From NCBI GenBank assembly GCA_036387335.1, contig DASVTZ010000007.1, positions 1 to 58,921 of the forward strand: DNA of 58,921 bases, given 5' to 3'. The notes beneath the pieces are model-generated. The model saw only the letters and a list, made by a program, of their open reading frames with translations, was not told the DNA's origin and did no database searches. This DNA is from Longimicrobium sp. GTDB taxonomy: Bacteria > Gemmatimonadota > Gemmatimonadetes > Longimicrobiales > Longimicrobiaceae. Shown piece by piece: positions 1 through 58,921 of the stretch. Each line of letters opens with the position of its first letter. Position 1 is the stretch's first letter. The position numbers were made by a program, and so were the translations under genes.

Positions 1-23
1 GCGTCTCCGCGCCTCCGCGTGAG
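1..23. repeat. right half of a dispersed CGCGGAG/CTCCGCG intergenic inverted repeat
   Basis: The window opens with tandem CTCCGCG units ending in CGCGTGAG, the same end as the copies at 37651-37735 and 56957-56992. Only the right arm is inside the window. The stretch to 120 holds no gene. Confidence 0.6.
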
Positions 24-3250: not shown

Positions 3251-3280
3251 CGCCAAACACCGGGAGCCGGGCGCCGAAAA

Positions 3281-3333
3281 CCGGGGGATAAATCCCCCGG
3301 CTGGAACTACGGGAAGACCGCTGAACCGGTCTC
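3281..3333 (+). repeat. REP-like palindromic element, left of RAYT
   Basis: Two consecutive hairpins: CCGGGGGAT/ATCCCCCGG and then GACCG CTGA..CGGTC, joined by GGCTGGAACTACGGGAAG. The same composite occurs inverted at 3813-3865 and again at 27217-27268. Confidence 0.85.
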
Positions 3334-3347
3334 GCGCGGCGCGGGGG

Positions 3348-3767
3348 TCAGGGTGGGGGCGGGTTGGTGAGCTCGAAGGTGGGGCTCAGGGTTCCGTCGC
3401 GGTGGTGGCGCTCCTGGTCGAGCACGTAGGCGCGGACACGGGGGACGATGGAGCGGGAGATGGTGAACGCGCCGTAGCCGTCCTGCCATTTGAAGGAGCG
3501 CGGGCCGGTTAGCTGATTCGCGAGGTGCGAAGATGCGCCTTTCATCTGACCGGCAAGCTCCGCGACGGATACCGTCGGTGGGGTGCGGAGGAGCACGTGC
3601 GCGTGGTCCGCGATCCCGCCGATCGCGAGAATGTCCGCCTTCAGCTTCCTGCACTGGTCGGCAATCGCGCCATAGATCCGCGGCTGCAGCTCCGGCGTGA
3701 TGATCGGGTGCCGCCGGTGCGTGGCCCAGACGATGTGCAGGTACAACTCCGTATGCGCGCTTGGCAT
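3348..3767 (-). CDS. REP-associated tyrosine transposase (RAYT, Y1_Tnp/IS200-like)
   Basis: 139-residue single-domain HUH nuclease. It starts PSAHTELYLHIVWATHRRHP, has the HUH-type motif GGIADHAHVLL near residue 50 and a downstream Tyr-bearing segment (WQDGYGAFTISRSIVPRV) where Y1 transposases keep the nucleophile. It is about the size of IS200/RAYT proteins. The ATG at 3767 is preceded by AAGGGGGG, so the longer upstream reading frame is ignored. It sits between two inverted copies of a GGGGGCT..AGCCCCC/GACCGCT palindrome, the classic RAYT-REP arrangement, so it probably acts on single-stranded REP hairpins. It is a domesticated-type single gene, not a full insertion sequence. Confidence 0.9.
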   Translation of the reverse strand: MPSAHTELYLHIVWATHRRHPIITPELQPRIYGAIADQCRKLKADILAIGGIADHAHVLLRTPPTVSVAELAGQMKGASSHLANQLTGPRSFKWQDGYGAFTISRSIVPRVRAYVLDQERHHRDGTLSPTFELTNPPPP

Positions 3768-3812
3768 ATCCCCCCTTATGCGTGGATGTGATCCGGCCGC
3801 CCAATGCCTACC

Positions 3813-3865
3813 AGACCGCTTCAGCGGTCTTCGCGTTGTTCCAGCCGGGGGCTTTAGCCCCCGGT
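3813..3865 (-). repeat. REP-like palindromic element, right of RAYT (inverted)
   Basis: Reverse complement of the composite at 3281-3333: AGACCGCTTCAGCGGTCT, a spacer containing GTTCCAGC, then CCGGGGGCTTTAGCCCCCGG. It lies just upstream of the transposase start. Confidence 0.88.
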
Positions 3866-14377: not shown

Positions 14378-15787
14378 ATGACACCGTCTCGTACACGCTT
14401 CTTCTTCGCCGCTCTGGCGCTGCTGTCGGGCGCGCGGGCGCTGCCGGCCCAGACTCCCGACGTGGTGGTGCAGGAGGAGCGCCGCAACGCGCCCGCGCAG
14501 CAGGCGAAGCCGTACGTGGTGCTCGTCTCCATCGACGGGTTCCGGCCGGACTACGTGGAGACGGTGCCCGCGCCCCGCATCGCGCAGTTCCGGCGCAAGG
14601 GTGCGGCGGCGCCGTACATGCTGCCGGTCTTCCCCTCCAAGACCTTCCCCAACCACTACTCCATCATCACCGGGATGTACCCCGGCACGCACGGGCTGGT
14701 GGGGAACCAGATGTGGGACCCGGTGCTCCGCGACTCGTTCAGGGTCGGCGACCCCGCGACGGAGCTGAATCCGCAGTGGTATGGGGGCGAGCCGCTCTGG
14801 GTGACGGCCGAGCGGCAGGGGATGCTGAGCGCGGCGCTGTACTGGCCCGGCTCGCAGGTGCCGATCGGGGGCATCCTTCCCACTTACCACGCGCGCTACG
14901 ACAAGTCGGTGCCGAGCGGGGCGCGCATGGACCAGGTGCTCAAGTGGCTCCGCCTTCCCCCCGAGCGCCGGCCGCACCTGGTGGCCGTCTACCTCTCCGA
15001 GGTGGACGAGGGGCACCATCCTCCGGGCTCGCCCGAGGTGCGCGCGGCCGTCACGCGAGTGGACTCGGTGCTGGACCTGCTGCTGAACGGGATCAACGGG
15101 CTCCCCATCGCGCGGCAGGTGAACGTGGTGCTGGTGTCCGACCACGGGATCCAGGACGTGCGCGCCGGCCGCACCCGCTTCCTCGCCGACCACATTCCGC
15201 TGGAGGGGGTGCGGGTGGTGGGGACCGGACCCACGACGTCGCTCTTCTTCGACGGCGACACGGCCGCGCTGGAGCGGGCGCGCACGGCGCTCCGCAGGGG
15301 ACTCCCCGGCGCGGGCGTCTACCGGCGCGCCGAGATCCCCGCGCGCTACCACCTCTCCGCCTCCCCGCGCGCGGGCGACCTGCTGGTGGAGATGCCGGCC
15401 CCCGACCTGATCGCCGCCCGCCGCCCCGGGTGGGGCAACGACGACGCGAACCACGGCTACGACCCGGCGACGCCTTCGATGCACGCCTTCTTCGCCGCCG
15501 CGGGCCCCGCCTTTCGCCAGCGGACGCGCGTCCCCGCCTTCGAGAACGTGCACCTCTACCCGCTCATCACCACCATCCTGCGCCTGCGCCCCAACCCGGC
15601 CATCGACGGCCGCGCCTCCGTCCTGGCGCCGCTCCTGAGGAAAACAGCGGGGCTCACACAGAGACACAGAGACACAGAGAGAAGAACAAAGGAAGTTCTC
15701 TGTGGCTTGCAGTTCCCTCTGTGTTCTCTGTGTGAGGCTTTTCTCCTGACCCGGCACACTTCGTGCTTTACATCGCAAAGCACTTGA
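14378..15787 (+). CDS. ENPP-type ectonucleotide pyrophosphatase/phosphodiesterase (alkaline phosphatase superfamily)
   Basis: 469 residues with a signal peptide (FFFAALALLSGARALPAQ). The catalytic domain starts VVLVSIDGFRPDYVE with the metal-binding Asp, and the nucleophile is the Thr of PSKTFPNHYSIITGMYPGTHG. Later metal motifs are EVDEGHH near 210 and VLVSDHG near 250, with NHGYDP near 362. It would hydrolyse phosphodiester or pyrophosphate bonds in the periplasm. The recognisable domain ends near residue 425 (SVLAPLL); the last 40-odd residues are encoded by a CACAGAG-type intergenic repeat at 15653-15736, so the C-terminus is either a repeat-derived tail or the product of a lost stop. Confidence 0.85.
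   Translation: MTPSRTRFFFAALALLSGARALPAQTPDVVVQEERRNAPAQQAKPYVVLVSIDGFRPDYVETVPAPRIAQFRRKGAAAPYMLPVFPSKTFPNHYSIITGMYPGTHGLVGNQMWDPVLRDSFRVGDPATELNPQWYGGEPLWVTAERQGMLSAALYWPGSQVPIGGILPTYHARYDKSVPSGARMDQVLKWLRLPPERRPHLVAVYLSEVDEGHHPPGSPEVRAAVTRVDSVLDLLLNGINGLPIARQVNVVLVSDHGIQDVRAGRTRFLADHIPLEGVRVVGTGPTTSLFFDGDTAALERARTALRRGLPGAGVYRRAEIPARYHLSASPRAGDLLVEMPAPDLIAARRPGWGNDDANHGYDPATPSMHAFFAAAGPAFRQRTRVPAFENVHLYPLITTILRLRPNPAIDGRASVLAPLLRKTAGLTQRHRDTERRTKEVLCGLQFPLCSLCEAFLLTRHTSCFTSQST
15653..15736. repeat. CACAGAG-type intergenic inverted repeat, full copy
   Basis: 84-bp imperfect palindrome beginning CTCACACAGAGACACAGAG and ending CTCTGTGTGAG, with the family core CTGTGGCTTGCAGTTCC near its middle. 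It lies inside the open frame of the phosphodiesterase. Confidence 0.88.
15763..15783. promoter_or_regulatory. operator-like inverted repeat, site 1
   Basis: Perfect 7-bp arms GTGCTTT and AAAGCAC around the spacer ACATCGC, 35 bp before the membrane protein ATG. A close relative is at 16838-16858; the likely ligand is the winged-helix regulator encoded at 16438. Confidence 0.7.
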
Positions 15788-24340: not shown

Positions 24341-27226
24341 TTGCCTCTCCCGATCATCCAGTCCGATCCGCGCGCGGCCAAGCTCGAGCGCGCGCTCAAG
24401 GAAAAGGTGCGCGGCGAGGTGCGCTTCGATGCCAAGTCGCGCCTCCTGTACAGCACCGATGCGTCGCTCTACCAGTTCCTCCCCGTCGGCGTGGTGGTGC
24501 CGAAGGAGGCGGCGGACGTGGAGGCGACGGTCAAGCTGGCGGCGGAGGCCGGGGTCGCCATCCTGCCGCGCGGCGGAGGGACCGCGCTCGCCGGGCAGAC
24601 GGTGGGGACGGCGCTGGTGATGGACTTCAGCAAGTACATGAACCGGGTGATCGAGATAGACCCGGACCGCAGGCGCGCGCGCGTGGAGCCGGGGCTGCGG
24701 CTCGACCGCCTCAACCGCGCCGCGGCGCCGTACGGGCTCCACTTCGGACCCGATCCGGCCACCATCCGCCAGTGCGCGCTGGGCGGGATGATCGGCAACA
24801 ACTCGTGCGGCGCCCGCTCGCTCGTCTACGGCAAGACGGGCGACCACGTGCACTCGCTGGAGTGCATCACCGCGGACGGACGCTGCGCCCACTTCGGCTC
24901 CGTCGCGCGCGAGGATGTGGCGCAGATGCCCGGGCTGGAGGGGGAGATCGCGCGCTCCGTCCTCGGCATCCTGGAGCCGGAGCGCGAGCGCATCCTCGCC
25001 CGCTATCCAAAGATCCCGCGCCGCGTATCGGGCTACAACTTCGACGCGATGCTGGAGGGCGACACCCTCAACCTCGCGCAGCTCATCGTCGGCTCCGAGG
25101 GGACGCTGGCGACGGTGGTGGAGGCGGAGCTGGGGCTGGTGCCGGTGCCGCCCGCGCGGTCGCTCGTGCTGCTGAGCTTCCGCGAACGCTTCACCTCGAT
25201 GGATGCCGTCCCCGCCATCCTCCTGGAGCGCGGCCTTTCGGCGCTGGAGATCGTGGACAGCCGGGTGCTGCAGGGCGCGCGCTCGCTGATCGAGTTCCGC
25301 GACACCGCCGCCATGGCCGCGCCCGATGCGCTGGGCGTCCTCTTCTGCGAGTTCAGCGGCGACTCGCCCGAGGAGGTCGCGGGGCTGGCGCACGACTTCG
25401 CGGCGCGGGCGAAGACGCTCCCGGGCGCGCCCCAGGCCAACGCGTATCTCACCGCGCGCGAGCAGGCGGCGGCGTGGGCGCTGCGCCAGGCGGCGACGGG
25501 GCTCCTCTACCTCACGACGCCCAACAAGAACATCAAGCCGCAGGAGTTCGTCGAGGACACCGGCGTGCCCCCCGAGCGGCTGGGCGACTACACGCGCCGC
25601 TTCGAGGAGATCGTCAACCGCCACGGCACCACCACGGGGTACTTCGGGCACGCGGGGCAGGGGTGCCTGCACATCCGCGTGGACCTGGACCTGAAGCGCG
25701 GCGAGGACGTCCAGCGCATGCAGGGGATCGCGCACGACATCGCCGAGCTCGTGGTGGAGTTCGGCGGCTCCCTCTCTGGCGAGCACGGCGACGGGCTGTC
25801 GCGCAGCGAGTTCCTTCCGCTGATGTTCGGGCCGGAGATCATCCGCCTGCACCAGGAGGTCAAGCGCGTTTTCGACCCCGAGGGGCGGATGAACCCCGGC
25901 GGCAAGATCGTGCCGCCCTACCAGCGCATGTCCGAGAACCTGCGCTTCGACGCCGTGGCCAACGCCGGCGCGCCCGACACCTGGTTCGACTACTCGGCCG
26001 ACGGCGGGTGGGATGTCGCGGTGGAGAAGTGCAACGGGATGGGGGTCTGCCGGAAGCTGGACACGGGAACGATGTGCCCCTCGCACATGGTCACCCTGGA
26101 AGAGCAGCACGCCACCCGCGGCCGCGCCAACGCCCTGCGCGAAGCGATGCGCGGCAACCTGCCGGGGATGAAGAGCGGGGCCGTGATGGAGGCGCTCGAC
26201 CTCTGCCTCGGCTGCAAGGCGTGCAAGACGGAGTGCCCCGTGGGCGTGGACATGGCGCGCTACAAGGTGGAGTACCTCGCACAGCACTACCGCGAAACGG
26301 GCACGCCACGCGACGCGCTCTTCTTCGGCCGCATCCGCGACTTCGCGCGCGCGGGGAGCCTGGCGCCGGGGCTCGCCAACCTGGGAAGCCGGCTGATGGG
26401 CGGCACCATCAAAGGGATCGGGCGGATGGACCCGCGCCGCGAGCTTCCGCCGCTGGCCAGTCATCCGTTCCGCCGCGGGTGGAAGCCGAAGCCGTCCGCC
26501 GGCCGCCCCACGGTCATCCTGCTGGACGACACCTTTCACAACTTCTTCCAGCCCGGCCCGCTGCACGCCACCGCCACCGTGCTGGAGCGCGCCGGCTTCC
26601 ACGTGAAGCTGCCAAAGAAATCCGTCTGCTGCGGCCGCGCCGCCATCTCCAACGGCCTCCTGGACCACGGACGCGCCCTCCAGACGGAGCTGCTGGAGAC
26701 GCTGCTTCCCGAGGTGGAGGCCGGGGCGATGGTCGTGGGCGTGGAGCCGAGCTGCATCCTCACCCTGCGCGACGAGCTCCCCGACCTGGTCCGCGATCCG
26801 CGCGCGAAAGTGCTGGCGAGCGCGTCCGTCATGCTGGAAGAGTTCCTCGCGGCGCTCCCCGACTGGCGGCCGGGCCGGCTGGAGCGGCGCGCCGTCGTCC
26901 ATGGCCACTGCCACCAGAAGGCGATCGTGGGGATGGGGCCGACGAACGAGGTGCTGGGGCGCGTGGAGGGGCTGGAGTTCTCCGTGCTCGATTCGGGGTG
27001 CTGCGGGATGGCGGGGTCGTTCGGCTACGAGAAAGGGCACTACGAGGTGTCGAAGGCGTGCGGCGAGCGCGTCCTCTTCCCCGCCGTCCGCGCCGCGGAG
27101 GCCGAAGACCTGGTGGTGGCCCCCGGCTTCAGCTGCCGCCACCAGATCGCCGACTTCTGCGACGGGCGCGCGACGCTGCACACGGCCGAGCTGCTGGCGA
27201 TGGCGGAAACCGCAACCGCGGGCTGA
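24341..27226 (+). CDS. FAD-binding and Fe-S (GlcD-GlcF-type fusion) oxidoreductase, D-2-hydroxyacid dehydrogenase-like
   Basis: 961 residues. An FAD_binding_4 domain (residues about 45-185, with ILPRGGGTALAGQTVG and GGMIGNNSCGARS), an FAD-oxidase C domain (to about 530, FGHAGQGCLHIR, GEHGDG), a ferredoxin-like region with CxxC motifs (CNGMGVC, LDLCLGCKACKTECP near 620) and two CCG cysteine blocks (KKSVCCGRAA, SGCCGMAGSFGYEKG). This is the fused form of GlcD/GlcF or Dld-II, oxidising D-lactate, glycolate or 2-hydroxyglutarate; the substrate is not decidable. The start is a TTG with weak Shine-Dalgarno pairing right after a long hairpin, suggesting restrained translation. The stop lies inside a REP palindrome. 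Confidence 0.88.
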   Translation: MPLPIIQSDPRAAKLERALKEKVRGEVRFDAKSRLLYSTDASLYQFLPVGVVVPKEAADVEATVKLAAEAGVAILPRGGGTALAGQTVGTALVMDFSKYMNRVIEIDPDRRRARVEPGLRLDRLNRAAAPYGLHFGPDPATIRQCALGGMIGNNSCGARSLVYGKTGDHVHSLECITADGRCAHFGSVAREDVAQMPGLEGEIARSVLGILEPERERILARYPKIPRRVSGYNFDAMLEGDTLNLAQLIVGSEGTLATVVEAELGLVPVPPARSLVLLSFRERFTSMDAVPAILLERGLSALEIVDSRVLQGARSLIEFRDTAAMAAPDALGVLFCEFSGDSPEEVAGLAHDFAARAKTLPGAPQANAYLTAREQAAAWALRQAATGLLYLTTPNKNIKPQEFVEDTGVPPERLGDYTRRFEEIVNRHGTTTGYFGHAGQGCLHIRVDLDLKRGEDVQRMQGIAHDIAELVVEFGGSLSGEHGDGLSRSEFLPLMFGPEIIRLHQEVKRVFDPEGRMNPGGKIVPPYQRMSENLRFDAVANAGAPDTWFDYSADGGWDVAVEKCNGMGVCRKLDTGTMCPSHMVTLEEQHATRGRANALREAMRGNLPGMKSGAVMEALDLCLGCKACKTECPVGVDMARYKVEYLAQHYRETGTPRDALFFGRIRDFARAGSLAPGLANLGSRLMGGTIKGIGRMDPRRELPPLASHPFRRGWKPKPSAGRPTVILLDDTFHNFFQPGPLHATATVLERAGFHVKLPKKSVCCGRAAISNGLLDHGRALQTELLETLLPEVEAGAMVVGVEPSCILTLRDELPDLVRDPRAKVLASASVMLEEFLAALPDWRPGRLERRAVVHGHCHQKAIVGMGPTNEVLGRVEGLEFSVLDSGCCGMAGSFGYEKGHYEVSKACGERVLFPAVRAAEAEDLVVAPGFSCRHQIADFCDGRATLHTAELLAMAETATAG

Positions 27227-27268
27227 AGCCCCCGGCTGGAACCACGGGAAGACCGCTGAAGCGGTCTC
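27217..27268 (+). repeat. orphan REP-like element overlapping the dehydrogenase stop
   Basis: GCGGGCTGAAGCCCCCGGC, GGAACCACGGGAAGACCGC and GAAGCGGTCT match the RAYT-flanking composites at 3281 and 3813. The TGA at 27224-27226 is formed by the first hairpin loop. Confidence 0.88.
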
Positions 27269-27367
27269 GGCGCGGCAAGTTGGCGCGCTATTCGGCGGAG
27301 AGGAACGTTGTCGGGCGTGGCGGGGCGCGGGTATGTTGGGGTGAACCCTTATGCGGAGTGCTTTGCG

Positions 27368-34604: not shown

Positions 34605-34633
34605 CTCACACAGAGCCACAGAGGGGACCTGCA
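34605..34633. repeat. CACAGAG-type repeat, half copy
   Basis: CTCACACAGAGCCACAGAGG followed by GACCTGCAAG, one arm only, between dinB and the DUF72 gene. Confidence 0.75.
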
Positions 34634-34648
34634 AGGGGGGAAGGGGAT

Positions 34649-35395
34649 TCAGCGCAGCCGTTCGAGGAGGTCGAGGGCGTTGGTGGTGGCGGCGCCGGAG
34701 GCGGTGTTGTCGAAGATGCACCAGGTGGATGCATTCCGCTCCGTGGCTTCTTTCAAGGATGCGGCGAGGGTGTCCAGGTAGGACGGCGGGTAGTCGGAGT
34801 AGTAGATGCGCGGCGAGCCGTGGAGGCGGTAGTAGACCAGCTCGGGCCAGCCGCCCGGCTCCGCGGCTTCGGGGACGCGCGCGGGGTCCGCGGCGACGCG
34901 GGCAACGCGGTGGTCGATCAGGAGCGCGTCGGCGGGGGTGGCGAACCAGGTGGGGTGGCGCGGCTCGCAGGCGACGGGGCCGGCGTGGCGCTCGCGCAGG
35001 GCGCGGAGGAATGCGCCCGCGATCTCTTCATCGAAGGCAAGGCTGGGCGGGAGCTGGACGAGAAGGCACCCCAGCTTCGCGCCGAGTCCCGATGCCTCGC
35101 CCAGGAAGCGGTCGAGCGGCTCTTCGGCGCCCACCAGCTTGGCCGTGTGCGTGATCTCGCGCGGGAGCTTGACGGAGAAGAGGAACGCGTCCGGAACGGC
35201 ATCCGCCCAGCGCGCATAGGTCGTTGGGCGGTGCGGGCGATGGAAGGAGGAGTTGATCTCCGCCGCCGGAAAGACGGACGCATAGCGCTGCAGGTGCGTG
35301 CCCTCCGCCGGGAAGCGCGGCTGGTCCTTGAGCGGCAGGCTCCACCCCGCGCATCCGACGAACGCGGGCGGGGCTGGTGTGGGATCGGGATTCAT
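34649..35395 (-). CDS. DUF72 domain protein (YecE-like TIM barrel)
   Basis: 248 residues. Conserved DUF72 blocks: FVGCAGWSLP at the start, RYASVFPAAEINSSFHRPHR near 38, FLFSVKLPREITHT near 70, GCLLVQLPPSLAFDE near 105, CEPRHPTWF near 145, VYYRLHGSPRIYYSDY near 185 and WCIFDNTASGAATTNAL near the end. The family is structurally a TIM barrel of unknown activity. The ATG at 35395 is favoured over a longer frame with no conservation. Confidence 0.88.
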   Translation of the reverse strand: MNPDPTPAPPAFVGCAGWSLPLKDQPRFPAEGTHLQRYASVFPAAEINSSFHRPHRPTTYARWADAVPDAFLFSVKLPREITHTAKLVGAEEPLDRFLGEASGLGAKLGCLLVQLPPSLAFDEEIAGAFLRALRERHAGPVACEPRHPTWFATPADALLIDHRVARVAADPARVPEAAEPGGWPELVYYRLHGSPRIYYSDYPPSYLDTLAASLKEATERNASTWCIFDNTASGAATTNALDLLERLR

Positions 35396-35580
35396 CCCGC
35401 CAAACTGAGTCCGGTCCGGCGGGCGCAGCAAGGGGTGCAGGCACGCGGCATCGTTGTGCCGCGCGCCATTATCCGGTATCGTGCAGGAGAGGGCGTCCAA
35501 CGATGGCACGAGCTCCGCTGTAGGAGTAGTGCCGGCCGTTGCGGACATGCGATCCACTCAACCCTTCTTCAGAGGTCCCC

Positions 35581-36171
35581 GTGCTCAACCGAAAGATGGC
35601 CGCCCTGCTCCTGGTGCTGGCGACGACCGCCGCCTGCGAGCGCAGCGCGACGGGCGCGCGCGACGAGTCTCCGTCCGCCGAGGCGCCCCAGCTCACGGAG
35701 TTCGGCGACGGGCTCTATTCGTCGCCGGACGCGGCGGGCACCGCCACTTTCGACCTGAACGCGGGCGCGGGCACCTTTGAGCGCACGCATGCCTGCCCCG
35801 CGGGCGGCAGCGTGACCGTCTCCGGCACGGTGGATCGCACGATCGACCGCGCCACGCAGACCGGCACCCTCGCCGTGAGCGCGAAGCGGGTGGAGAACGC
35901 GTGCGCCGTCAAGCAGCGCAACGGCGTCACCGTGACCGTCACCGGCCAGCCCAACACCGCGATCGGCGTGACCGCGAGCTTCAACAAGGGCGTGCCCGGC
36001 GTCATCACCCAGACGCAAAAGGGCGCCTTCGCCTGGAGCCGCAGCAACGGCAGAAGCGGCACCTGCGCGATCGACCTGACCTCGACCTTTGATCCCGCCA
36101 CGCGCACCGCGACCATCAAGGGCAGCTTCTGCGGCCGCCCCGTGGACGAGACGCGCACCCGCACGCGCTGA
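35581..36171 (+). CDS. hypothetical lipoprotein
   Basis: 196 residues from GTG at 35581 (VLNRKMAALLLVLATTAACE), with lipobox TTAAC. The mature region is Thr/Ser-rich beta sequence with four Cys (ERTHACPAGGSVTV, ENACAVKQRNGV, GRSGTCAIDLTS, KGSFCGRPV), probably two disulfides. An ATG five codons downstream is an alternative start. No family recognised. A strong terminator follows at 36198. Confidence 0.65.
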   Translation: MLNRKMAALLLVLATTAACERSATGARDESPSAEAPQLTEFGDGLYSSPDAAGTATFDLNAGAGTFERTHACPAGGSVTVSGTVDRTIDRATQTGTLAVSAKRVENACAVKQRNGVTVTVTGQPNTAIGVTASFNKGVPGVITQTQKGAFAWSRSNGRSGTCAIDLTSTFDPATRTATIKGSFCGRPVDETRTRTR

Positions 36172-36197
36172 TCCAGTCTTCATCGCAACGCAGCAAC

Positions 36198-36226
36198 GGA
36201 GGCCGAACCCCCGCCGGGTTCGGCCT
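36198..36226 (+). terminator. hairpin terminator after the lipoprotein gene
   Basis: GGAGGCCGAACCC pairs exactly with GGGTTCGGCCTCC around CCG-type loop bases, followed by TCTCGT. Confidence 0.75.
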
Positions 36227-36258
36227 CCTCTCGTATCACCCTCCGCGCCTTTCCGTCC

Positions 36259-36279
36259 CCCTCTGTGTCTCTGTGTGAA
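36259..36279. repeat. CACAGAG-type repeat, right half copy
   Basis: CCTCTGTGTCTCTGTGTGA matches the right arm of the full copies; it sits 7 bp downstream of the amidohydrolase stop. Confidence 0.7.
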
Positions 36280-37650: not shown

Positions 37651-37735
37651 CTCACGCGGAGACGCGGAGACGCAGAGGAAAGAACAGCAGAGGGTCCTCC
37701 GCGGCTTGTAGTTCCCTCTGCGTTCTCCGCGTGAG
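37651..37735. repeat. CGCGGAG-type intergenic inverted repeat, full copy
   Basis: 85-bp palindrome beginning CTCACGCGGAGACGCGGAG and ending CGTTCTCCGCGTGAG, with core CCGCGGCTTGTAGTTCC. It is the same element as 15653-15736 with A replaced by G in each unit. Confidence 0.88.
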
Positions 37736-42101: not shown

Positions 42102-42405
42102 AGGACGCCGGACGCGGCCGCCAAGCTCCGCTACGGACGCGGAGGCACGCCTGCCTTCCTCCCTCACGCACTGGTTGATGATTGCCGCGTACACGGATGA
42201 CGGCACGCTGGCCGGCATGCTCCTGCGCTACCATGCGGGCGACCGGAAGGTCCGGAGCGGGGCCGCGTGCCCACGCCCAAGGAAGCAGGACCGGCGGCAC
42301 CTTCATCGCGAGTTGAAGGCAGCGAAGCCGTTCGGCGAAGCCAGTCTGAAACACACGGCAGCCGTGGGAGCGTTCCCCTGCGGCTGCCGTGGTGCTTGCC
42401 CCAGC

Positions 42406-42496
42406 GGCCAACGATCAAGTTCAGGCGCGTGCGCCTGACGATCCTTACCTCAGAAACAATCCCTGGCCGCACGTCGCCTGGAACGCCTTGTTCGGC
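42406..42496 (-). repeat. attC-like imperfect palindrome 1
   Basis: Ends GGCCAAC and GTTCGGC with inner complementary segments AGTTCAGGCG and CGCCTGGAAC. The rest of the 42102-42540 gap has only a CACGGCAGCCG/CGGCTGCCGTG hairpin (about 42353-42392) and no gene. Confidence 0.6.
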
Positions 42497-42540
42497 GACT
42501 ATGTGCACTCCGATGTTCCACCGATCAGAAGCCAAACCCT

Positions 42541-42945
42541 TTAGCTGTACCCATAACGCTCCCGGAACTTCTCGCAGGCACTGGGATCTGGCACCCATGC
42601 CTCCATCGCGGTCAGTTCTGCCCGAAGTGCCGGTCCTAACCACTCTCGCAGGTGGCGCTCCCCAACGTTTGCCGGATCGCTTGCGAGGTATTCAAGAAAA
42701 GAAACGGCGATGACGTTCTTCACTTCCTCGTCGCCCTCAGTCATGAAGCAATCCAGCAGATTGAGGGGAGGCCGCAGGGTTGCCTCAGATGCTCCTTCTG
42801 CCGCTTGGGTGAGCAACCGTCGGATGTCGCCCATCAAGACGTGGGGTAGAAGCTCGCCTTGATCGCTCAGGTGCTCGGTACGGGCAGCAGACAGTAACGG
42901 CGTCACTCTGGCAAGCTCGTCGAAAAGATCGGCTACACGGCGCAC
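42541..42945 (-). CDS. hypothetical cassette protein (DUF7674-like)
   Basis: 134 residues from GTG at 42945, which has AAGGTGG upstream. All-helical acidic sequence: RRVADLFDELARVTPLLSAA, QGELLPHVLMGDIRRLL, then LNLLDCFMTEGDEEVKNVIA and VSFLEYL. The pattern resembles small DUF7674-type proteins, some of which are annotated near toxin or immunity genes; I am not certain of the family. It lies between attC-like sites at 42406 and 43003. Confidence 0.6.
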   Translation of the reverse strand: MRRVADLFDELARVTPLLSAARTEHLSDQGELLPHVLMGDIRRLLTQAAEGASEATLRPPLNLLDCFMTEGDEEVKNVIAVSFLEYLASDPANVGERHLREWLGPALRAELTAMEAWVPDPSACEKFRERYGYS

Positions 42946-43002
42946 GCTTCCACCTTGTCGGGACCGCTGATGGTGCAGGCTGGGTCGATGCCACGGAAAG
43001 CC

Positions 43003-43103
43003 GTCGAACGACACAAGGGTCAGGGGTGCGGGGTTGGCACGCAAGACTTTCATCACGCTATAAGCATGCAAGGCCCCGCATCCCCTGCAGCCGATTGTTA
43101 GGC
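43003..43103 (-). repeat. attC-like imperfect palindrome 2
   Basis: Ends GTCGAAC and GTTAGGC. Complementary inner arms GGGTCAGGGGTGCGGGG and CCCCGCATCCCCTGCAG. Near-identical to the site at 46083-46184. Confidence 0.82.
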
Positions 43104-43131
43104 CTGCCGGCGAGGCACTTCCACTGTCCTG

Positions 43132-43338
43132 CTAAGCAACGTGACTCTCGCCAGCAGAAACCCGCTGCTTGGCTGCCAGCATTGACGTCAGGATTCTCAC
43201 GAAGACACGCGTCGTCTCCGTGAACGTCTCCACCGCATCCTTCCGCTCTTCCAGAGGCCACATACGCCCACCATTAACGGCAACTTGGAAGTAAACCGTT
43301 CCCTGAGAATCATCAGGATGCAACCAGGCGCTCAGCAT
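43132..43338 (-). CDS. small hypothetical cassette protein
   Basis: 68 residues: MLSAWLHPDDSQGTVYFQVA, then EERKDAVETFTETTRVFVRI and LTSMLAAKQRV. An N-terminal beta-like part and C-terminal helix look protein-like, and the stop lies 29 bp before an attC-like site as expected for a cassette's last gene. No family recognised. Confidence 0.5.
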   Translation of the reverse strand: MLSAWLHPDDSQGTVYFQVAVNGGRMWPLEERKDAVETFTETTRVFVRILTSMLAAKQRVSAGESHVA

Positions 43339-43376
43339 CCCCGGCCTAGAGAAGTGGACTGAACCGGATGCGATCT

Positions 43377-43787
43377 TTAAACATGGCTAACCCAGGGAAA
43401 CGTCTTGGACAATTCTCGGTGGAGATAGCTATCGGTAAGGTTTTCTCCCCCTTTCGATCGGAGTTTATTCAAAGGGACATCGTCCAAGTACGCTCTCAAC
43501 ACTGCATGCGGGTCCTCCGCCAGCATAAACGCGAACAACCGCATGCAGTTGTCAAGATGAATCCGAATGAGAGGCAGAGCGCATATGGGGTTGCACTCCT
43601 CCACCATGGTGGCGAAACCGCTCGTTAGCATAATCGAGCGCTGGACCAGACCGGGTATCGCCAAGTCGGACGGCAACGGATGCTCGGGGTCAGTCGCCAG
43701 TAGGTCGTGACCGAGCTGTAGCTGCTGTGGGATAGTAGACCGGAGATACGCGACGGCTTCTGCGAGAGTACTGAGGTTTTCGTCCAC
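43377..43787 (-). CDS. hypothetical cassette protein (DUF5677/HEPN-like helical)
   Basis: 136 residues, helical: LAEAVAYLRSTIPQQLQLGH, GLVQRSIMLTSGFATMVEEC and LIRIHLDNCMRLFAFMLAED near residue 75. The last block resembles the core of DUF5677-like proteins (helical, HEPN-related), but no RxxxxH motif is evident. Its GC is lower than flanking core genes. It is 39 bp upstream of the 68-residue gene on the same strand. Confidence 0.6.
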   Translation of the reverse strand: MDENLSTLAEAVAYLRSTIPQQLQLGHDLLATDPEHPLPSDLAIPGLVQRSIMLTSGFATMVEECNPICALPLIRIHLDNCMRLFAFMLAEDPHAVLRAYLDDVPLNKLRSKGGENLTDSYLHRELSKTFPWVSHV

Positions 43788-43832
43788 GGCTGTAGCACTC
43801 GTTCTGTTTTCGCCCGGCTCAGCTGGACCGGG

Positions 43833-44345
43833 TTATCCAATCGGTGCGATGAGTCCGCGCGTTCCTACCGGCGCACACACTCGTCGCAAGCTTTCGAACC
43901 GATGCGCATCGTAAACGGGATTCAGCGCATACTCCAATGGCCCAATGATATCGAACAAAACGTTCAAGCCGTCGACCGCCGCAACTGCTCTCAGGAATTT
44001 CTTGGAAGCATACCCCGTTTCATAGAGCCGATAGGCCCGAACGAAGTAGACCTTGACCGCTCGCCGGGCTAGGTCAACCTCTTGAGCCCACTCTTCTCCC
44101 TGGTCAAGAGCTTGCTTCCACTTTAGAGCGAAGTGTTCGCCGTGCTGTTCCCTGCACTGACGGAGACGCCGGAGTGCTCGCACCATCTCGGGCGTCCCAT
44201 ACTCCGTATAGTAAGTAGAATTTAACTGCCCCTCGGCTACTTGAGAGGCCGCCTTCGCCGCCTGCCAAGCCGCAACAGCAGCCACCACTGTACCGAGTGC
44301 GCTGGCGGCAGTAAAAACGAAACTGAAGGATTCTGCGCTGATCAT
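43833..44345 (-). CDS. hypothetical membrane-anchored cassette protein
   Basis: 170 residues. An N-terminal hydrophobic segment (FVFTAASALGTVVAAVAAWQ) is followed by a helical soluble domain (MVRALRRLRQCREQHGEHFA, VDLARRAVKVYFVRAYRLYE). The layout (one helix then a charged domain containing YYTEYGTPEM) is common for DUF4760-like phage or defence-associated small proteins; assignment is tentative. It starts the multi-gene cassette that ends at the attC-like site 43003-43103. Confidence 0.62.
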   Translation of the reverse strand: MISAESFSFVFTAASALGTVVAAVAAWQAAKAASQVAEGQLNSTYYTEYGTPEMVRALRRLRQCREQHGEHFALKWKQALDQGEEWAQEVDLARRAVKVYFVRAYRLYETGYASKKFLRAVAAVDGLNVLFDIIGPLEYALNPVYDAHRFESLRRVCAPVGTRGLIAPIG

Positions 44346-44378
44346 CTCAGGACAGGCTCATGTGGTATCGAATCCGAT

Positions 44379-44457
44379 TTAGATGGCCGTAGATGCCGGG
44401 ACGTCGAATGCAACCGCGGGTAAGATGACCTGCGGCTGCCGCGACGCTTGCCCAGCG
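44379..44457 (-). repeat. shared cassette leader
   Basis: CCTGCGGCTGCCGCGACGCT and TGCCCAGCGGCC just outside attC 3 closely match the DNA outside attC 1 (42378-42410). Read on the minus strand it is the 5' leader of the following cassette. Confidence 0.55.
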
Positions 44458-44548
44458 GCCTAACGACACAGGGTCAGCGGTGCGGGGGAGGCGCGCAAGA
44501 CTTTCATCCGGCTGAAGGCATGCACGGCCCCCCTGCAGCGATTGGCAC
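44458..44548 (-). repeat. attC-like imperfect palindrome 3, one end degenerate
   Basis: Begins GCCTAAC; inner arms GGGTCAGCGGTGCGGGGG and CCCCCCTGCAGCG; the far end reads ATTGGCA instead of GTTAGGC. Shares GCAAGACTTTCATC with sites 2 and 4. No gene in 44346-44687. Confidence 0.72.
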
Positions 44549-44687
44549 CCCGCGCGCGAATTCCATGTTGGCCCGGAGCCGCGAGGCTCCACACCGGGGG
44601 CCGCCGTATTTACGACTGCAGCCCGTCCCCTGCCGTGCGTCAGGGATGCTTTCTCACGACGATGACCCTGAGCCGAGAGGGATCGGA

Positions 44688-45935
44688 TCAGTGGTTCGGC
44701 AGTGAGACTTTCTGGAGTTCCTGCCAGTCGATCCGCCCGGCGTCGATAGGCGTGTCGGTACCGTAATACTGCGTCGGGTTCCGGTTGTCGCGGTAGACGT
44801 GGTTGGAGCCGTCCTGTAGCTTCACCCGCTCCCCTGACGTCGGGTCGACGTAGTTGGCCTCGCCCCGGATGCCGTCGATCCGAGTCTCCTGCTGCCGGTC
44901 CATCGAGCCCATGCGGTTGTCGAACGCCGCCTTGTCCCGGTCCATCGCCGCCATGCGGTCGTTGTGCCGGGCGGTGTTGGCGGCGCCCTGTTGCTGGATG
45001 TCATTCATCCGGGCGTTGTGCCCCCGGGTCATCGCAGCGGTGTTGGCGTCGATCTGCCCCATCGTCGCCTCGTGCTGCTGGCGACTCAACTCGCTGTTCG
45101 CCTGGGCACCACGCGTCTGGGCGGCCTGATTCTGTTCCATCCACGTCGGGTTCATCACGATGGATTCCTGGGCGACCACCGTGTGGCCGTGGGCGGTGTC
45201 CAGGTCGTCGGCCGTCTGCGTGATTGACGGGATCACCATCCAGGTGGTGTAAGTGTCGTTGCCGATCTGCTGCACGTTCCGGGTGATGCGGCACTCCACC
45301 CGGGCCCGGTTGCCATTGGGCAGGATGCCGTCGACCGACCCGCGCGACTCCATCTGTCCGTTCGCGTTCCGCCGCTGCGGCGCGTCCATCTCGTTGCCGA
45401 CGTTGCGCAGCTGAAACCCGTTCTGCGCCAGGAACGGCAGCAACACCTGCCGGATGTACGTCACGGGCGGCATCGGCGGAAGTTCGTCCGGAAGCCGGGA
45501 GATCGGCAGCCCCATCGACTGTGCCATGCCCCGGGTCTGCCGGATCGTGGGGCCGTCCGCGTGGTTGTAGGTGCGCGACGGCAGGTACTCGATCCGGGTG
45601 CGACCGTCGGGCGCGCGCAGGTCGAGGTAGATCTGATTCTGCGGCATCGCCCCCACCCAGCGCCGGGTGAACGTCTGCTTCGCCTGCCAGCTGCGCGGCA
45701 CCTTCATCGCGAAGGCGACCAGGTTGCCCCGTTCAGGGTCGAGCACGCCCAGGAGGCGGTACCCGCCCTCGGCCGGGGATTCGGCGGATGCGTTCATCGC
45801 CTGAGGGTCCGAAGATGGGCTGGACGTCCCGTCGCGACCGGTGGAATCGGCGGCGCGGGTACCGGGTTCGGGCCGACCGCGGCAGGCACCCAGGCCCAGC
45901 GCGACGACCAGCAGCGACGGCAGGAAAAAACGCAT
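44688..45935 (-). CDS. hypothetical lipoprotein with Met/Gln/Asn-rich C-terminal helix
   Basis: 415 residues. Signal sequence FFLPSLLVVALGLGACRG with lipobox LGLGAC. A globular region (residues about 60-240, e.g. MKVPRSWQAKQTFTRRWVG, MPPVTYIRQVLLPFLAQNGF) is followed by a long polar helix (residues about 275-355) with repeated RM.. and Gln/Ala units (HNARMNDIQQQGAANTARHN, DRMAAMDRDKAAFDNRMGSM), then a short C-terminal domain (YVDPTSGERVKLQDGSNHVY). It is far larger and richer in GC than its cassette neighbours. Function unknown. Confidence 0.7.
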   Translation of the reverse strand: MRFFLPSLLVVALGLGACRGRPEPGTRAADSTGRDGTSSPSSDPQAMNASAESPAEGGYRLLGVLDPERGNLVAFAMKVPRSWQAKQTFTRRWVGAMPQNQIYLDLRAPDGRTRIEYLPSRTYNHADGPTIRQTRGMAQSMGLPISRLPDELPPMPPVTYIRQVLLPFLAQNGFQLRNVGNEMDAPQRRNANGQMESRGSVDGILPNGNRARVECRITRNVQQIGNDTYTTWMVIPSITQTADDLDTAHGHTVVAQESIVMNPTWMEQNQAAQTRGAQANSELSRQQHEATMGQIDANTAAMTRGHNARMNDIQQQGAANTARHNDRMAAMDRDKAAFDNRMGSMDRQQETRIDGIRGEANYVDPTSGERVKLQDGSNHVYRDNRNPTQYYGTDTPIDAGRIDWQELQKVSLPNH

Positions 45936-46082
45936 GGTCTTGAACGAATAGGAGGTGTGAGAAACTACGACGCCGACAAGATACATCTACCGGAGCTGTG
46001 CACCTAACCATTTGGCAATCCTCCTGTTTGTACCATGCTTTCTTTAAGTCCAAGATTCGGAACGAATATCCGAAGCGTAGCC

Positions 46083-46184
46083 GCCGAACAACGCAAGGGT
46101 CAGGGGTGCGGGGCCGCCGCGCAAGGCTTTCATCCCACCCGAAAGCATGCAAGGCCCCGCATCCCCTGCAGCCGATTGTTAGGC
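46083..46184 (-). repeat. attC-like imperfect palindrome 4
   Basis: Ends GCCGAAC and GTTAGGC with arms GGGTCAGGGGTGCGGGGCC and GGCCCCGCATCCCCTGCAG. The TAA of the gene ending at 46179 lies within GTTAGGC, the usual cassette arrangement. Confidence 0.85.
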
Positions 46185-46757
46185 CGCGCGAGGACCGCGG
46201 GCTCTTGGTAGCCTTACGGCGGGCATCGACGGCTTGTAGCACAGCAACGCGGCAACGTGATGCTGCACTCGGGCGCGCAGATCGGGATCTTGCTCGATGT
46301 CCTCCTGGAACCGCTGAACTGCGTGCCTCAATGCGTCAGCCAACGCCTCGATCTCTACGACCACAGCCCCGTCGTTAACGTGTTGCTGCAGTAAAAGGTC
46401 GTTCGGGTGATGAACGTGTCTCCACCTGTAGACCAGGCTCCTTGCCTGTCCCTGGCGAGACAAATCGCTATGCCTGCTATAGGCATGCAAGACGCCGCAA
46501 CGGGCGGCCCAAAGGTCAGCAGAACTCAGCGCGGTGTGGAGGTATGGAACGAAGTACTTCTCGGCCCATGCCTTGAAGTCTGGACCGCCCCCACTCGCTC
46601 GGTTAGTCGGTACCGTTAATCCCGCGAGAGCGTCCATCGCGGAATAGATCAGGGTCACAGCCGAAACGAGGCACAAGGCTTCGATGCACGCGTCGATTCC
46701 GCGTAACATACCGCGTTCGCCGTGAACGATCTCGTGAACACTCGGATCTCCCATCAT
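46179..46757 (-). CDS. hypothetical cassette protein
   Basis: 192 residues. Helical, starting MGDPSVHEIVHGERGMLRGI, with AVTLIYSAMDALAGLT near residue 33, FKAWAEKYFVPYLHTALSSA near 62 and a block DLWAARCGVLHAYSRHSDLS near 82 that is characteristic of a small family of HEPN-like proteins found in accessory regions. Its stop codon is inside the attC-like site at 46083-46184, which ties gene and site into one cassette. Function unknown. Confidence 0.65.
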   Translation of the reverse strand: MMGDPSVHEIVHGERGMLRGIDACIEALCLVSAVTLIYSAMDALAGLTVPTNRASGGGPDFKAWAEKYFVPYLHTALSSADLWAARCGVLHAYSRHSDLSRQGQARSLVYRWRHVHHPNDLLLQQHVNDGAVVVEIEALADALRHAVQRFQEDIEQDPDLRARVQHHVAALLCYKPSMPAVRLPRARGPRAA

Positions 46758-54654: not shown

Positions 54655-56709
54655 TTACCAAATCCTCACGCGCTGCTCGGGCGGCAGGTACATCTTGTCG
54701 CCGGGCTGGACGTTGAAGGCGGCGTAGAACTCCGGGATGTTGCGGAGGACGCCGTTGGTGCGGTACTCGCCCGGCGAGTGCGGGTCGGTCATCACCTGCT
54801 GGCGCAGGGCGTCCTCGCGCATCAGCGTGCGCCAGATCTGCGCGAAGCCGATGAAGAAGCGCTGGTCGCCCGTGAGGCCGTCGATCACCGGGGCCTCGCG
54901 GCCGTTCAGCGACTTCTTGTAGGCGCGGTACGCCATCGCGATGCCGCTCAGGTCGCCGATGTTCTCGCCCAGGGTGAGGCGGCCGTTGAGGTTGAGGCCC
55001 GGCGCCGGGCTGAAGGCGGCGTACTGCGCCACCAGGGCGTCCGCACGCTGCTTGAAGGCGTCGTTGTCCGCCTCGGTCCACCAGTCGCGCAGGTTGCCCT
55101 CGCCGTCGGAGCGGCGGCCCTGGTCGTCGAAGCCGTGGCTGATCTCGTGGCCGATCACCGCCCCGATTCCCCCGTAGTTCACCGCGTCGTCGGCGGCCGG
55201 GTTGAAGAAGGGAGGCTGCAGGATCGCCGCGGGAAAGACGATCTCGTTCATCGTCGGCGAGTAGTACGCGTTCACCGTCTGCGGGGTCATCCCCCACTCC
55301 GCGCGGTCGATGGGCTGCCCCAGGCGGCGCACCATGCGGTTGTGGCCGAACTCGGCGATGCGGCGCAGGTTGCCCGGCAGGTCGCCCGGGCGGATCGTGA
55401 GCGCCGAGTAGTCACGCCACTGGTCCGGGTAGCCGATCTTGACGTTGAACTTCGCCAGCTTGGCCTGCGCCTGCACCTTGGTCTCGGGGCTCATCCACTC
55501 CAGGGAGTCGATGGCCGTCTGGAAGGCGGAGCGGAGGTTGCCCACGAGCTCCTGCATCCGCGCGCGGCTCTCCGGGCGGAAGTTGCGCTGCACGTACAGG
55601 CGGCCGGCGGCCTCGCCCAGGGCGCCCTCCACCAGGCCGACGCCGCGCTTCCAGCGGGGGCGGTTCGCCTCCAGCCCCTGCAGCGCCTTGCCGCGGTACG
55701 CGAACTGGGCGTTGACGAAGGGCGAGCTGAGCGCCGACGCGTAGTTGTCGACCAGCTTGACCGTCAGGTACTGGCGCAGCACCGGCACCGGCGTGGCGGC
55801 GATGATCTGGTTCATCGCCGTCATGTAGTCCGGCTGGCGCACGACGACGCCCGGCGTGCTCTCCGCGCCGACCGCGCGCAGGAAGCGGGTCCAGGAGAAG
55901 CCCGGCATCATGGAGTCGAGCTGCGCGACGGTGCGCAGGTTGTAGCTCGCCTCGCGGTCGCGGCTGCGGGCGCGGTCCCACTGCTTCTCGGCCAGCGCCG
56001 TCTCCAGCGCGAGCACGGCGCGAGCGCCCGCGGCGGGGTTGCGGTCGCCGGCCAGGCGCAGCAGCGTCTCCACGTACGTCTGGTACGCGGCGCGGGCGGC
56101 GACGAGCTTGGCGTCCTGCTTCAGGTAGTAGTCGCGGTCCGGAAGCCCGAGCCCGCTCTGCCCCGCGGAGGCGATGTAGCGCGTGGCCTGGCGGGCATCC
56201 TGCCCCACGCCGAAGCCGAACGGCGTCTGCACGCCGATGCGCTGCAGGTGCGCAAAGAGCTCCGGGAGCGCGGCGCGGTCGCTGAGCGCGGCGATGCGGG
56301 CCAGCTCGGGGCGGATGGGCGTGATGCCGGCCGCCTCGATGCGCGCCGAGTCCATGAAGCTGCGGTACAGGTCGCCCACCTTCTGCGTCTCGGAGCCCGG
56401 CTGCGCGTTGCGCGCGGCGGCGGCCTCGTCGATGATGGCGCGGAGCGACTCTTCGCTGCGGTCGCGCAGCTCCACGAAGGAGCCGAAGCTGGAGCGGTCG
56501 GCCGGGATCTGCGTGGTCTTGAGCCAGCCGCCGTTCACGTAGCGGAAGAAGTCGTCCTGCGGGCGAACGGTCGTGTCGAAGTTGCGGCGGTCGAAGCCGA
56601 GCGCGGGGGTGCCCGTCTGCGCGGCGAGCGTGCCGGCGAGGCCGGTCGCCACCAGCGCGCCCACGACGCCGAGGCGCCGCGGCAGGCGGAGCTGCTTGGG
56701 AGGTGTCAT
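54655..56709 (-). CDS. M13-family (neprilysin-like) zinc metallopeptidase
   Basis: 684 residues with a signal-like N-terminus (LGVVGALVATGLAGTLAAQ). Zinc ligands His521 and His525 in GHEISHGFDDQGRRSDGEGN (HEISH) and Glu582 in GENIGDLSGIAMAYRAY, with Asp586. Other family motifs: NAYYSPTMNEIVFPAAILQP and DFFRYVNGGWLK near residue 45. It degrades peptides in the periplasm or outside. The ATG at 56709 begins MTPPKQLRLPRRLG. Its 3' end is present in three further truncated copies in the accessory region, so this gene is the right-hand boundary of that region. Confidence 0.95.
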   Translation of the reverse strand: MTPPKQLRLPRRLGVVGALVATGLAGTLAAQTGTPALGFDRRNFDTTVRPQDDFFRYVNGGWLKTTQIPADRSSFGSFVELRDRSEESLRAIIDEAAAARNAQPGSETQKVGDLYRSFMDSARIEAAGITPIRPELARIAALSDRAALPELFAHLQRIGVQTPFGFGVGQDARQATRYIASAGQSGLGLPDRDYYLKQDAKLVAARAAYQTYVETLLRLAGDRNPAAGARAVLALETALAEKQWDRARSRDREASYNLRTVAQLDSMMPGFSWTRFLRAVGAESTPGVVVRQPDYMTAMNQIIAATPVPVLRQYLTVKLVDNYASALSSPFVNAQFAYRGKALQGLEANRPRWKRGVGLVEGALGEAAGRLYVQRNFRPESRARMQELVGNLRSAFQTAIDSLEWMSPETKVQAQAKLAKFNVKIGYPDQWRDYSALTIRPGDLPGNLRRIAEFGHNRMVRRLGQPIDRAEWGMTPQTVNAYYSPTMNEIVFPAAILQPPFFNPAADDAVNYGGIGAVIGHEISHGFDDQGRRSDGEGNLRDWWTEADNDAFKQRADALVAQYAAFSPAPGLNLNGRLTLGENIGDLSGIAMAYRAYKKSLNGREAPVIDGLTGDQRFFIGFAQIWRTLMREDALRQQVMTDPHSPGEYRTNGVLRNIPEFYAAFNVQPGDKMYLPPEQRVRIW

Positions 56710-56816
56710 TCGATTGGCTTTACCTGGGGGAAACAAAAGTTCACCATCGCGACTCGTTACCCGCGACGATGGCGGCGGTTCCTGATGGTTCCGTGGTGCG
56801 TTCAGGAACGGCTGGT

Positions 56817-56992
56817 CTCACGCGGAGGCGCGGAGACGCAGAGAGAAAAGAACAGAGGCTCACACAGAGACACAGAGCCACAGAGAGAACAGCAATAAGG
56901 GTTTTCTCTGTGGCTTGCAGTTTCCTCTGTGCCCCTCCGTGTGAGGCTTTTCTCCGCTGTTCTCTCTCCGCGCCTCCGCGTCTCCGCGTGAG
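56817..56992. repeat. nested inverted repeat: CGCGGAG-type arms enclosing a complete CACAGAG-type element
   Basis: Outer arms CTCACGCGGAGGCGCGGAG (56817-56855) and CTCCGCGTCTCCGCGTGAG (ending 56992) enclose CTCACACAGAGACACAGAG (from 56859) to CCTCCGTGTGAG (56945), with core CTGTGGCTTGCAGTTTCC. Confidence 0.9.
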
Positions 56993-57005
56993 GCTGCTGT
57001 TGCTT

Positions 57006-58921
57006 TTACCGTGTGGCCGCCGGCTGCGGGGCCGGAGTGCGCGGGCCGGCGTTCTTCACGTAGCGGTCCATCCAGCGGATCATCTCCGCCAGCGTGTGCA
57101 TCACGGATTCACGGCCGCGGTAGCCGTGCGCCTCGTACGGGAGGACGACGTAGCGCACCGTGGCGCCATGGCCCTTGAGCGCGGCGTAGAAGCGCTCGCT
57201 CTGGATGGGAAAGGTGCCGGAGTTGTCGTCCGCCTCGCCGTGGATGAGGAGGATCGGCTCGTTCACCTTGTTGGCGAAGGTGAAGGGGCTCATCCGCGTG
57301 TACGTGTCCGTGGCCTCCCAGTAGCTGCGCTGCTCCGCCTGGAAGCCGAACGGCGTGAGCGTGCGGTTGTACGCGCCCGACCGCGCGATGCCGGCGCGGA
57401 AGAGGTCGCTGTGCGCCAGCAGGTTGGCCGTCATGAAGGCGCCGTACGAGTGCCCGCCCACGCCTATGCGGTCGCGGTCCGCCACGCCCATCTCCACCAC
57501 CTTGTCCACCGCGGCCTTTGCGCTGGCCACGAGCTGCTCGATGTAGGTGTCGTTCGGCTCGGCACCGTTGGCGCCCACGATGGGCATCGTCGGGTTGTCC
57601 AGCACCGCGTAGCCCTGCGTGAGCAGGAAGAGATGCGAGATGCCGCCCGGCCGCGCGAAGCGGTTGGGCGAGTCGCTCACCTGGCCCGCGCTGGCCGCGT
57701 CGCGGAACTCCGTGGGATACGCCCACATCAGCAGGGGGAGCGGACCGTCGCGCCGGGCGTCGTAGCCGGCGGGGAGGTACAGCGTGCCGCTCAGATCCAC
57801 ACCGTCCGCGCGCTTGTAGGTGATGAGCTGGCGCGTGACGCCCGCGAGCTGCGGCGCCGGGTCCGTGAAGCGCGTAACCGCCTGCGCGGTGCCGCCCGGA
57901 AGGGTGCGGACGTAGTAGTTGGGCACCTCCGTCAGCGACTCGCGGCGCGTGAGGATGCGGTTGCCCGAGCGGTCCAGCACCGTGACCACGCTCTCGAAGT
58001 GCGGGTCCTCGGCGCGCCACAGGCGGCGGGTGGCGCCGGTCGCGATCTCCATCCGGTCCAGGAAGGGATAGAGGCCTTTGGGCGACGCGCCCTGGCCCGC
58101 GAGGAAGATCGCGCGCCCGTCCTCCGTCGTCAGCATTACCGGGTGGCCGCTGGCGGTGGAGGTGTACATCGGGCCGCCGGGGTCGCCGTAGCGGTCGTCG
58201 TAGGTGCGGTCCGCCAGCTTGCGCGGCGCCGCCGAGGGGTTGGCGGGGCTGGCGGCGTAGCGGCGCTCCCACCGCGTGTTCCACCAGCGCGACGTCACCA
58301 GCGCGAAGTCGTTCGTCCCCCACGACACGCCGGCGAAGCGCTGGTCCAGGTCCAGCCAGCGCGTGGGCTGCGCGGTGAAGGGAGCGTCCAGCAGGAAGAG
58401 GCGGTCGCGCACCGGCGCCTGCTTGCGCGGGTCGCCCTCGTCCTGTGCCTCCACCCAGAACAGCGTGGCCGGCGCGTCCGACCGCCACTCCACGTCGCGC
58501 GGGCCCGTGGCGACCGCGTCGAATGCGGTGGGGAGGTCGTCGGTCAGCGGGATGTCGGCGACGCGCTTCACCTCGCGCCCCGTCATGTCCAGCACCTGGA
58601 TGCGGTTGGGGAAGCGGCCCGCGGGTGCCACGAAGCTGTACGGCTTCTCGATCCTCGTCACCAGCACGAACCGGCCGTCCGGCGACACGCTGGCGTCCTC
58701 GATGATCCCGGGCTCGCCCAGCCTCGTGGGCGCGCCCCCGGCCACCGGCACGCGCACGAGCTGCGAGGTGAAGTAGTAGTCGAAGAGGCGCGCGTCGTGC
58801 GGCGTCTGCAGCAGGTCCTGGTACGTGCGCCCCGGCGAGGTGCGCCCCAGGTTCTCCTGCACCAGCGGGCCCGTGGGCGCGCGCGGCGCCTGCGGAACCG
58901 CGCCGCGACCGGCCGGCACCT
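57006..58921 (-). CDS. S9-family serine peptidase (glutamyl endopeptidase / dipeptidyl-peptidase-like), 5' truncated by the window
   Basis: About 638 residues present; the start lies beyond the right edge. A beta-propeller-like N-terminal region (LVRVPVAGGAPTRLGEPG, ASVSPDGRFVLVTRIE) leads to the alpha/beta hydrolase domain. Nucleophile Ser is in GVGGHSYGAFMTANLL, the Asp region is PILLIHGEADDNSGTFP and the His is in VVLPYEAHGYRGRES. The layout is closest to the S9D/glutamyl endopeptidase branch. It is likely secreted, but the signal peptide is outside the window. The stop is 14 bp after the nested repeat. Confidence 0.9.
   Translation of the reverse strand, partial: VPAGRGAVPQAPRAPTGPLVQENLGRTSPGRTYQDLLQTPHDARLFDYYFTSQLVRVPVAGGAPTRLGEPGIIEDASVSPDGRFVLVTRIEKPYSFVAPAGRFPNRIQVLDMTGREVKRVADIPLTDDLPTAFDAVATGPRDVEWRSDAPATLFWVEAQDEGDPRKQAPVRDRLFLLDAPFTAQPTRWLDLDQRFAGVSWGTNDFALVTSRWWNTRWERRYAASPANPSAAPRKLADRTYDDRYGDPGGPMYTSTASGHPVMLTTEDGRAIFLAGQGASPKGLYPFLDRMEIATGATRRLWRAEDPHFESVVTVLDRSGNRILTRRESLTEVPNYYVRTLPGGTAQAVTRFTDPAPQLAGVTRQLITYKRADGVDLSGTLYLPAGYDARRDGPLPLLMWAYPTEFRDAASAGQVSDSPNRFARPGGISHLFLLTQGYAVLDNPTMPIVGANGAEPNDTYIEQLVASAKAAVDKVVEMGVADRDRIGVGGHSYGAFMTANLLAHSDLFRAGIARSGAYNRTLTPFGFQAEQRSYWEATDTYTRMSPFTFANKVNEPILLIHGEADDNSGTFPIQSERFYAALKGHGATVRYVVLPYEAHGYRGRESVMHTLAEMIRWMDRYVKNAGPRTPAPQPAATR

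Follow-up and report, generated by a model that had tools for sequence, protein, structure and literature searches.

The region at positions 56817–56992 of the window (the whole analysed stretch of 58,921 nucleotides, from a draft genome of Longimicrobium sp., here G000) raises the question of how one long palindrome comes to lie precisely inside another, close behind a gene. According to the inverted-repeat data, two outer arms of the CGCGGAG type (G-type), 83% complementary across 41 nt, are separated by a gap of 94 nt, and this gap contains a complete element of the CACAGAG type (A-type). Genes on the minus strand flank the nest on both sides, and the stop codon of the upstream gene is 13 nt away. 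The features of the locus, together with related elements of the window, are as follows.

54655..56709, minus strand: downstream gene, same strand as the upstream one (home-made gene call).
56807..56816, plus strand: outer left end AACGGCTGGT, with the AACNGC motif (from the sequence and from motif enrichment at element ends).
56817..56857, plus strand: outer (G-type) left arm (inverted repeat I8).
56851..56858, plus strand: left linker AACAGAGG, from the outer arm to the inner element, overlapping the end of the outer arm (from the sequence).
56859..56945, plus strand: inner (A-type) element, with an 11-nt bulge in the right arm (from the sequence and from RNA and DNA folding).
56946..56952, plus strand: GCTTTTC, a right end common to many stand-alone A-type elements (sequence comparison).
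56952..56992, minus strand: outer (G-type) right arm (inverted repeat I8), covarying with the left arm in 29 copies.
56993..57001, minus strand: outer right end GCTGCTGTT, reading AACAGC on that strand and immediately following the next gene's stop codon (from the sequence).
57006..58919, minus strand: upstream gene, putatively peptidase-like by sequence reading, stop codon abutting the element (home-made gene call).
37651..37735, plus strand: lone element of 85 nt, built like the inner type but spelt in CGCGGAG letters; a stop codon lies 8 nt away.
15653..15736, plus strand: single CACAGAG-type element.
1..23, minus strand: G-type right arm truncated by the contig end (inverted repeats I12 and I16).

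As RNA, the 206-nt strand of the locus is predicted to fold at −120 kcal/mol (shuffled sequences, −72.5, SD 4.5; z = −10.7), and as DNA at −65.9 (z = −8.8), in both cases into one long hairpin, which on the window strand is continuous and has an 11-nt bulge. Arms, gap content and folding, the last proposed as a check in a preliminary description of this locus, all agree with its claim that CGCGGAG-type arms enclose a complete CACAGAG-type element at their centre. It had also held that each type exists alone, which is true of the CACAGAG-type element at 15653–15736, but the element at 37651–37735 is not the outer frame alone, having inner-type anatomy, including the GGCTTGTAGTTCC bulge, written in CGCGGAG letters. 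What corresponds better to the outer frame in un-nested form is a short hairpin (about 70 nt) of the kind seen at the orthologous site of the relative G004.

The nest is not peculiar to this locus. Nested copies are found at about 70 places in G000, and in the genome search more than 25 of them cover at least 170 of 197 nt. A pattern for the nested half-junction has 110 matches genome-wide and its reversed control has none; since, in addition, the folding goes far beyond that of the shuffles, a chance origin of the nest is excluded. The order is fixed in this genome, G-type outside and A-type inside, the reverse order not being found. The 838 kb that were parsed hold G-type frames around A-type elements, partly degraded versions of these, and singles; L366/L546 may be a further degraded multi-storey case, and in two loci, L373 and L394, the outer frame holds a short A-type hairpin. 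Interrupted outer elements thus proved common in the collected copies, and side-by-side arrays were absent from these 838 kb apart from one segmental duplication, so the idea that one repeat had been inserted into the loop of another survives the comparison that was proposed along with it. In an alignment of 29 copies, 58 stem cells are changed on both sides, compared with 33.6 (SD 4.8) in shuffles, and the clearest covarying pairs lie in the stem formed by the outer arms.

These numbers refer to a draft genome, assigned to Longimicrobium through its similarity to Longimicrobium sp. YPbin7 and AVDCRST_MAG68, with home-made gene calls, and the site counts come from selected loci; moreover, contigs terminate in or near such elements (positions 1–23 of the window and the ends of contigs C40, C44, C93, and C206), and therefore the copy numbers are probably too low. 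Contig ends of this kind also fit an artefact of assembling repeats in a draft genome, an explanation that we regard as extremely improbable given that independently assembled genomes have this architecture between the same flanking sequences (L058, L067) and that offsets are tight in 39 arms of the relative G009, an assembly of about 60 contigs.

In G009, nests are built from other families, namely, an H-type frame (116 arms) and I-type elements (125 arms). An H arm lies 52–62 nt outside 39 of the 100 listed I arms; among the 36 complete I elements, 15 are flanked by none of the listed H arms. Conversely, 18 out of 19 complete H frames hold another hairpin, of the I or A' type, and four out of 19 have a third (J) layer or its remnant. 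The three-storey nests H[I[J]] and H[A'[J]] were observed at L459, L460, L532, and L543, one of them without the left I arm. The nest types, outer family first, are hence G[A] in G000, and H[I], H[A'], H[I[J]], and H[A'[J]] in G009. Other palindromes also lie within some G-type hairpins of G100, a member of a different family within the same class. The CRCRGAG-type motif is also present in scattered genomes of other phyla, the few elements inspected there having mostly the opposite arm polarity. In a Mantel test of outer against inner divergence, the positive control also failed.

The multi-family nests bear on both routes named in the preliminary description. Loop-targeted insertion is upheld as a recurrent process involving different families; as an event at the window locus it is not established, because the nested form is the genome-wide standard. 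Template switching within a single palindrome fails, because the nests combine different families, while switching between dispersed copies is a possible source of nests. The same observations make it very unlikely that the second storey arose in place by slippage or inverted duplication inside one palindrome: although the arms are made of direct repeats and some derivatives resemble slippage deletions, inner and outer storeys are distinguishable families that also occur alone, and the nests H[I[J]] and H[A'[J]] join unrelated families.

The basic unit consists of AACNGC, 2–4 nt, CTCAC, three to four CRCRGAG repeats, an apex with AACNGC/GCNGTT, and the mirror image of all this. AACNGC is present in 45 out of 96 element ends, compared with 2.7% of intergenic 16-mers, and in 74 out of 100 nested linkers and 64 out of 69 H-type ends, the intergenic background being about 3%. 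As AACNGC/GCNGTT is common to element ends and apices, the motif suggests a microhomology that could serve for capture. In 23 H-to-I copies from G009, the linkers are all distinct and only 51% identical (shuffled, 41%), and the arms are 93–95% identical; homogenisation of arms could be another source of variable linkers next to uniform arms.

Linkers also bear on the possibility that the nest formed only once and that the composite then spread as a unit, moved in trans in the manner of a MITE or REPIN. Most nests of G000 have one order, one offset, and often one linker, and the junction GAACTGCAACTGCATGG, common to many of them, fits a ready-made composite; a subset is 92–96% identical over both storeys and has in common an outer layer of the TGATACCATT type. 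Two copies of this last kind, L060 and L063, have empty orthologous sites in G006, the only empty sites seen there, no clean empty site of a plain element being found among the orthologous sites compared. However, different outer and inner subtypes combine (the short A-type hairpins of L373 and L394; the frames of G009 with I, A', I[J], and A'[J]), linkers in G009 all differ, and no transposase partner has been found. As an account of the nests, we thus consider unit spread unlikely, though finished composites probably spread as well, in particular those with the TGATACCATT layer. At L052, L056, L060, L063, and L073, nests are themselves enclosed by an additional layer whose ends resemble TGATACCATT...AATGGTATGA, and this layer is possibly a separate MITE.

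The elements are closely associated with gene ends. According to home-made gene calls, an element lies no more than 30 nt from 37 out of 53 neighbouring gene 3' ends, the commonest distances being 8–16 nt; there are 21 tandem cases, where 10.1 (SD 2.3) are expected, and 12 convergent placements compared with three divergent ones. The AAC of the element end often overlaps the stop codon. Tails are T-rich (4.5 of 14 nt, compared with 2.4 in intergenic controls), with a run of four T in only five out of 21 tandem cases. A terminator scan did not flag the window element, though its hairpin is very strong, and no Rfam model matched the window at the gathering score.

The sites, moreover, persist longer than the hairpins that occupy them. 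In G006, whose genes are about 93% identical to those of G000, a superfamily hairpin is present at 30 out of 33 comparable sites, and these loci, 127 kb in all, contain only five hairpins elsewhere. At only six out of 30 sites does the best match come from the positional counterpart, a number that may be too low because longer BLAST words were used against counterparts than against the bank, a bias that works somewhat against counterparts; the change of hairpin subtype is visible directly on reading the G006 sites. In 21 sites, hand-picked for having exchanged hairpins, the 14 nt adjacent to the element are more alike than in permuted pairs (p about 0.01 on each side). The window's own site has other content in each of five relatives: the short G-type hairpin in G004, A-type hairpins in G005 and G006, a degenerate arm in G008, and a different nest in G009. 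At a given position, then, related species carry different hairpins, suggesting small elements that repeatedly enter or replace one another.

Nesting itself alternates at orthologous sites. The window site and the L058 locus are nested in G000 and have the outer frame only in G004, and conversely, C110:74320 is un-nested in G000 and nested in G006. Each difference could be a gain or a loss; since L058 in G004 retains both linkers, the un-nested states could be losses. No target-site duplication was seen at L058.

It may be that selection maintains the hairpins at gene 3' ends as terminators or mRNA protectors and that their copies overwrite one another by ectopic gene conversion, nesting being a by-product. 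The tight spacing from stop codons, the excess of convergent placements, the conservation of sites while sequence is exchanged, T-rich tails, covarying arms, and one dominant subtype in AVDCRST_MAG68 are all in line with this. At the same time, the element at 56817–56992 was not flagged as a terminator and a minority of the tandem cases have a four-T run, and gene conversion alone does not account for apices that hold complete units from a different family, so that we give this explanation little weight as a whole.

No transposase with ends matching the repeats, for which the preliminary description had suggested looking, was found at the Y1_Tnp loci or in the stretches between lone arms that were examined. 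A RAYT was rejected as the mover, both Y1_Tnp genes of G000 sitting between other REP families. None of 16 Y1_Tnp loci is closely flanked by a pair of CRCRGAG arms, only L426 having arms within 300 nt, and Y1_Tnp genes were not found in G100, G131, G294, and G296, though these genomes carry the hairpins. An autonomous element between lone arms was likewise sought in nine stretches covering part of the genome, translated and inspected by eye, which contained ordinary-looking genes. In the window, a RAYT-like (Y1_Tnp) gene (3414–3752, minus strand) lies at 3280–3865 between inverted REP-like repeats GGGGGCTTTAGCCCCCGG...AGACCGCTTCAGCGGTCT, another copy of which occurs at 27214–27269; at 34605–36279, a gene has inverted CACAGAG-type half-elements on both sides, 1.6 kb apart; and at 42350–46200, small ORFs alternate with palindromic repeats whose ends read GCCTAACAA/TTGTTAGGC, which may represent a cassette array of the integron kind.

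Taking all this into account, we read the locus as a two-storey member of a superfamily of stop-codon-adjacent palindromes in Longimicrobiaceae, whose units are repeatedly placed at the apices of other units and whose hairpins are replaced over time, a reading to which we give an even chance. Since different partners are found at the apex again and again, whole units have probably been placed there repeatedly, producing two storeys here and three in G009. The gene-adjacent site, meanwhile, persists as its hairpin changes, and it may be retained because a hairpin there serves the 3' end of the gene. Breakage or stalling at a hairpin apex may be followed by the copying-in of a dispersed hairpin, primed by AACNGC/GCNGTT. 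Recurrent partners, the motif at ends and apices, and the lack of a linked transposase make such apex capture by template switching our preferred route. More tentatively, and with the odds rather against it, these may be mobile palindromes that have no dedicated transposase and land on one another's apices, with the result that hairpins at fixed positions behind genes would constantly be invaded, enclosed, and exchanged for others.

Researchers have long asked how REP-like palindromes originate, spread, and turn over. The hundreds of copies described here stack their families in a definite order, and between species the hairpin at an orthologous site changes but the site itself is kept; this exchange makes the route testable by comparison of close strains, and the exchanged hairpins behind genes are natural experiments on their role there.

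In the REP/REPIN–RAYT systems, the RAYT gene lies between cognate repeat copies, and a REP is a palindrome of 20–40 nt with a GTAG or CGTC tag at one end. The hairpins described here have units of about 60–200 nt, longer arms of CRCRGAG repeats, AACNGC ends instead of such tags, and recursive nesting; no RAYT is flanked by them, and they are present where no Y1_Tnp was found. In the open-access literature, we found nothing relevant on these repeat sequences or on Longimicrobium. Like REP and BIME palindromes, they have many dispersed intergenic copies with compensatory changes (PMC3116915) and lie near stop codons, which REP termini adjoin or supply (PMC3733652), a likeness that extends to REPINs. 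IS1397, IS621, and ISKpn1 insert specifically into REP palindromes (PMC1525189), and the present nests resemble these insertions into a palindromic repeat, but the inserted piece is a short palindrome without a gene. Like MITEs, the hairpins are short, non-coding, and numerous, with terminal inverted repeats (AACNGC...GCNGTT and the palindromic arms); neither a target duplication nor a parent transposase was found at the sites and stretches examined. Finally, small variable segments, or microdiversity loci, are fixed loci with strain-specific short segments, for which illegitimate recombination has been proposed as a main source (PMC2884548); our sites are similarly fixed and differ in their short segments, but what alternates at them is almost always a hairpin from a single superfamily. 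Thus, the hairpins are a variant of REP/MITE-like palindromic repeats, and their recursion and their exchange at conserved sites are unusual features compared with REP/BIME/REPIN palindromes, MITEs, and REP-targeting insertion sequences.
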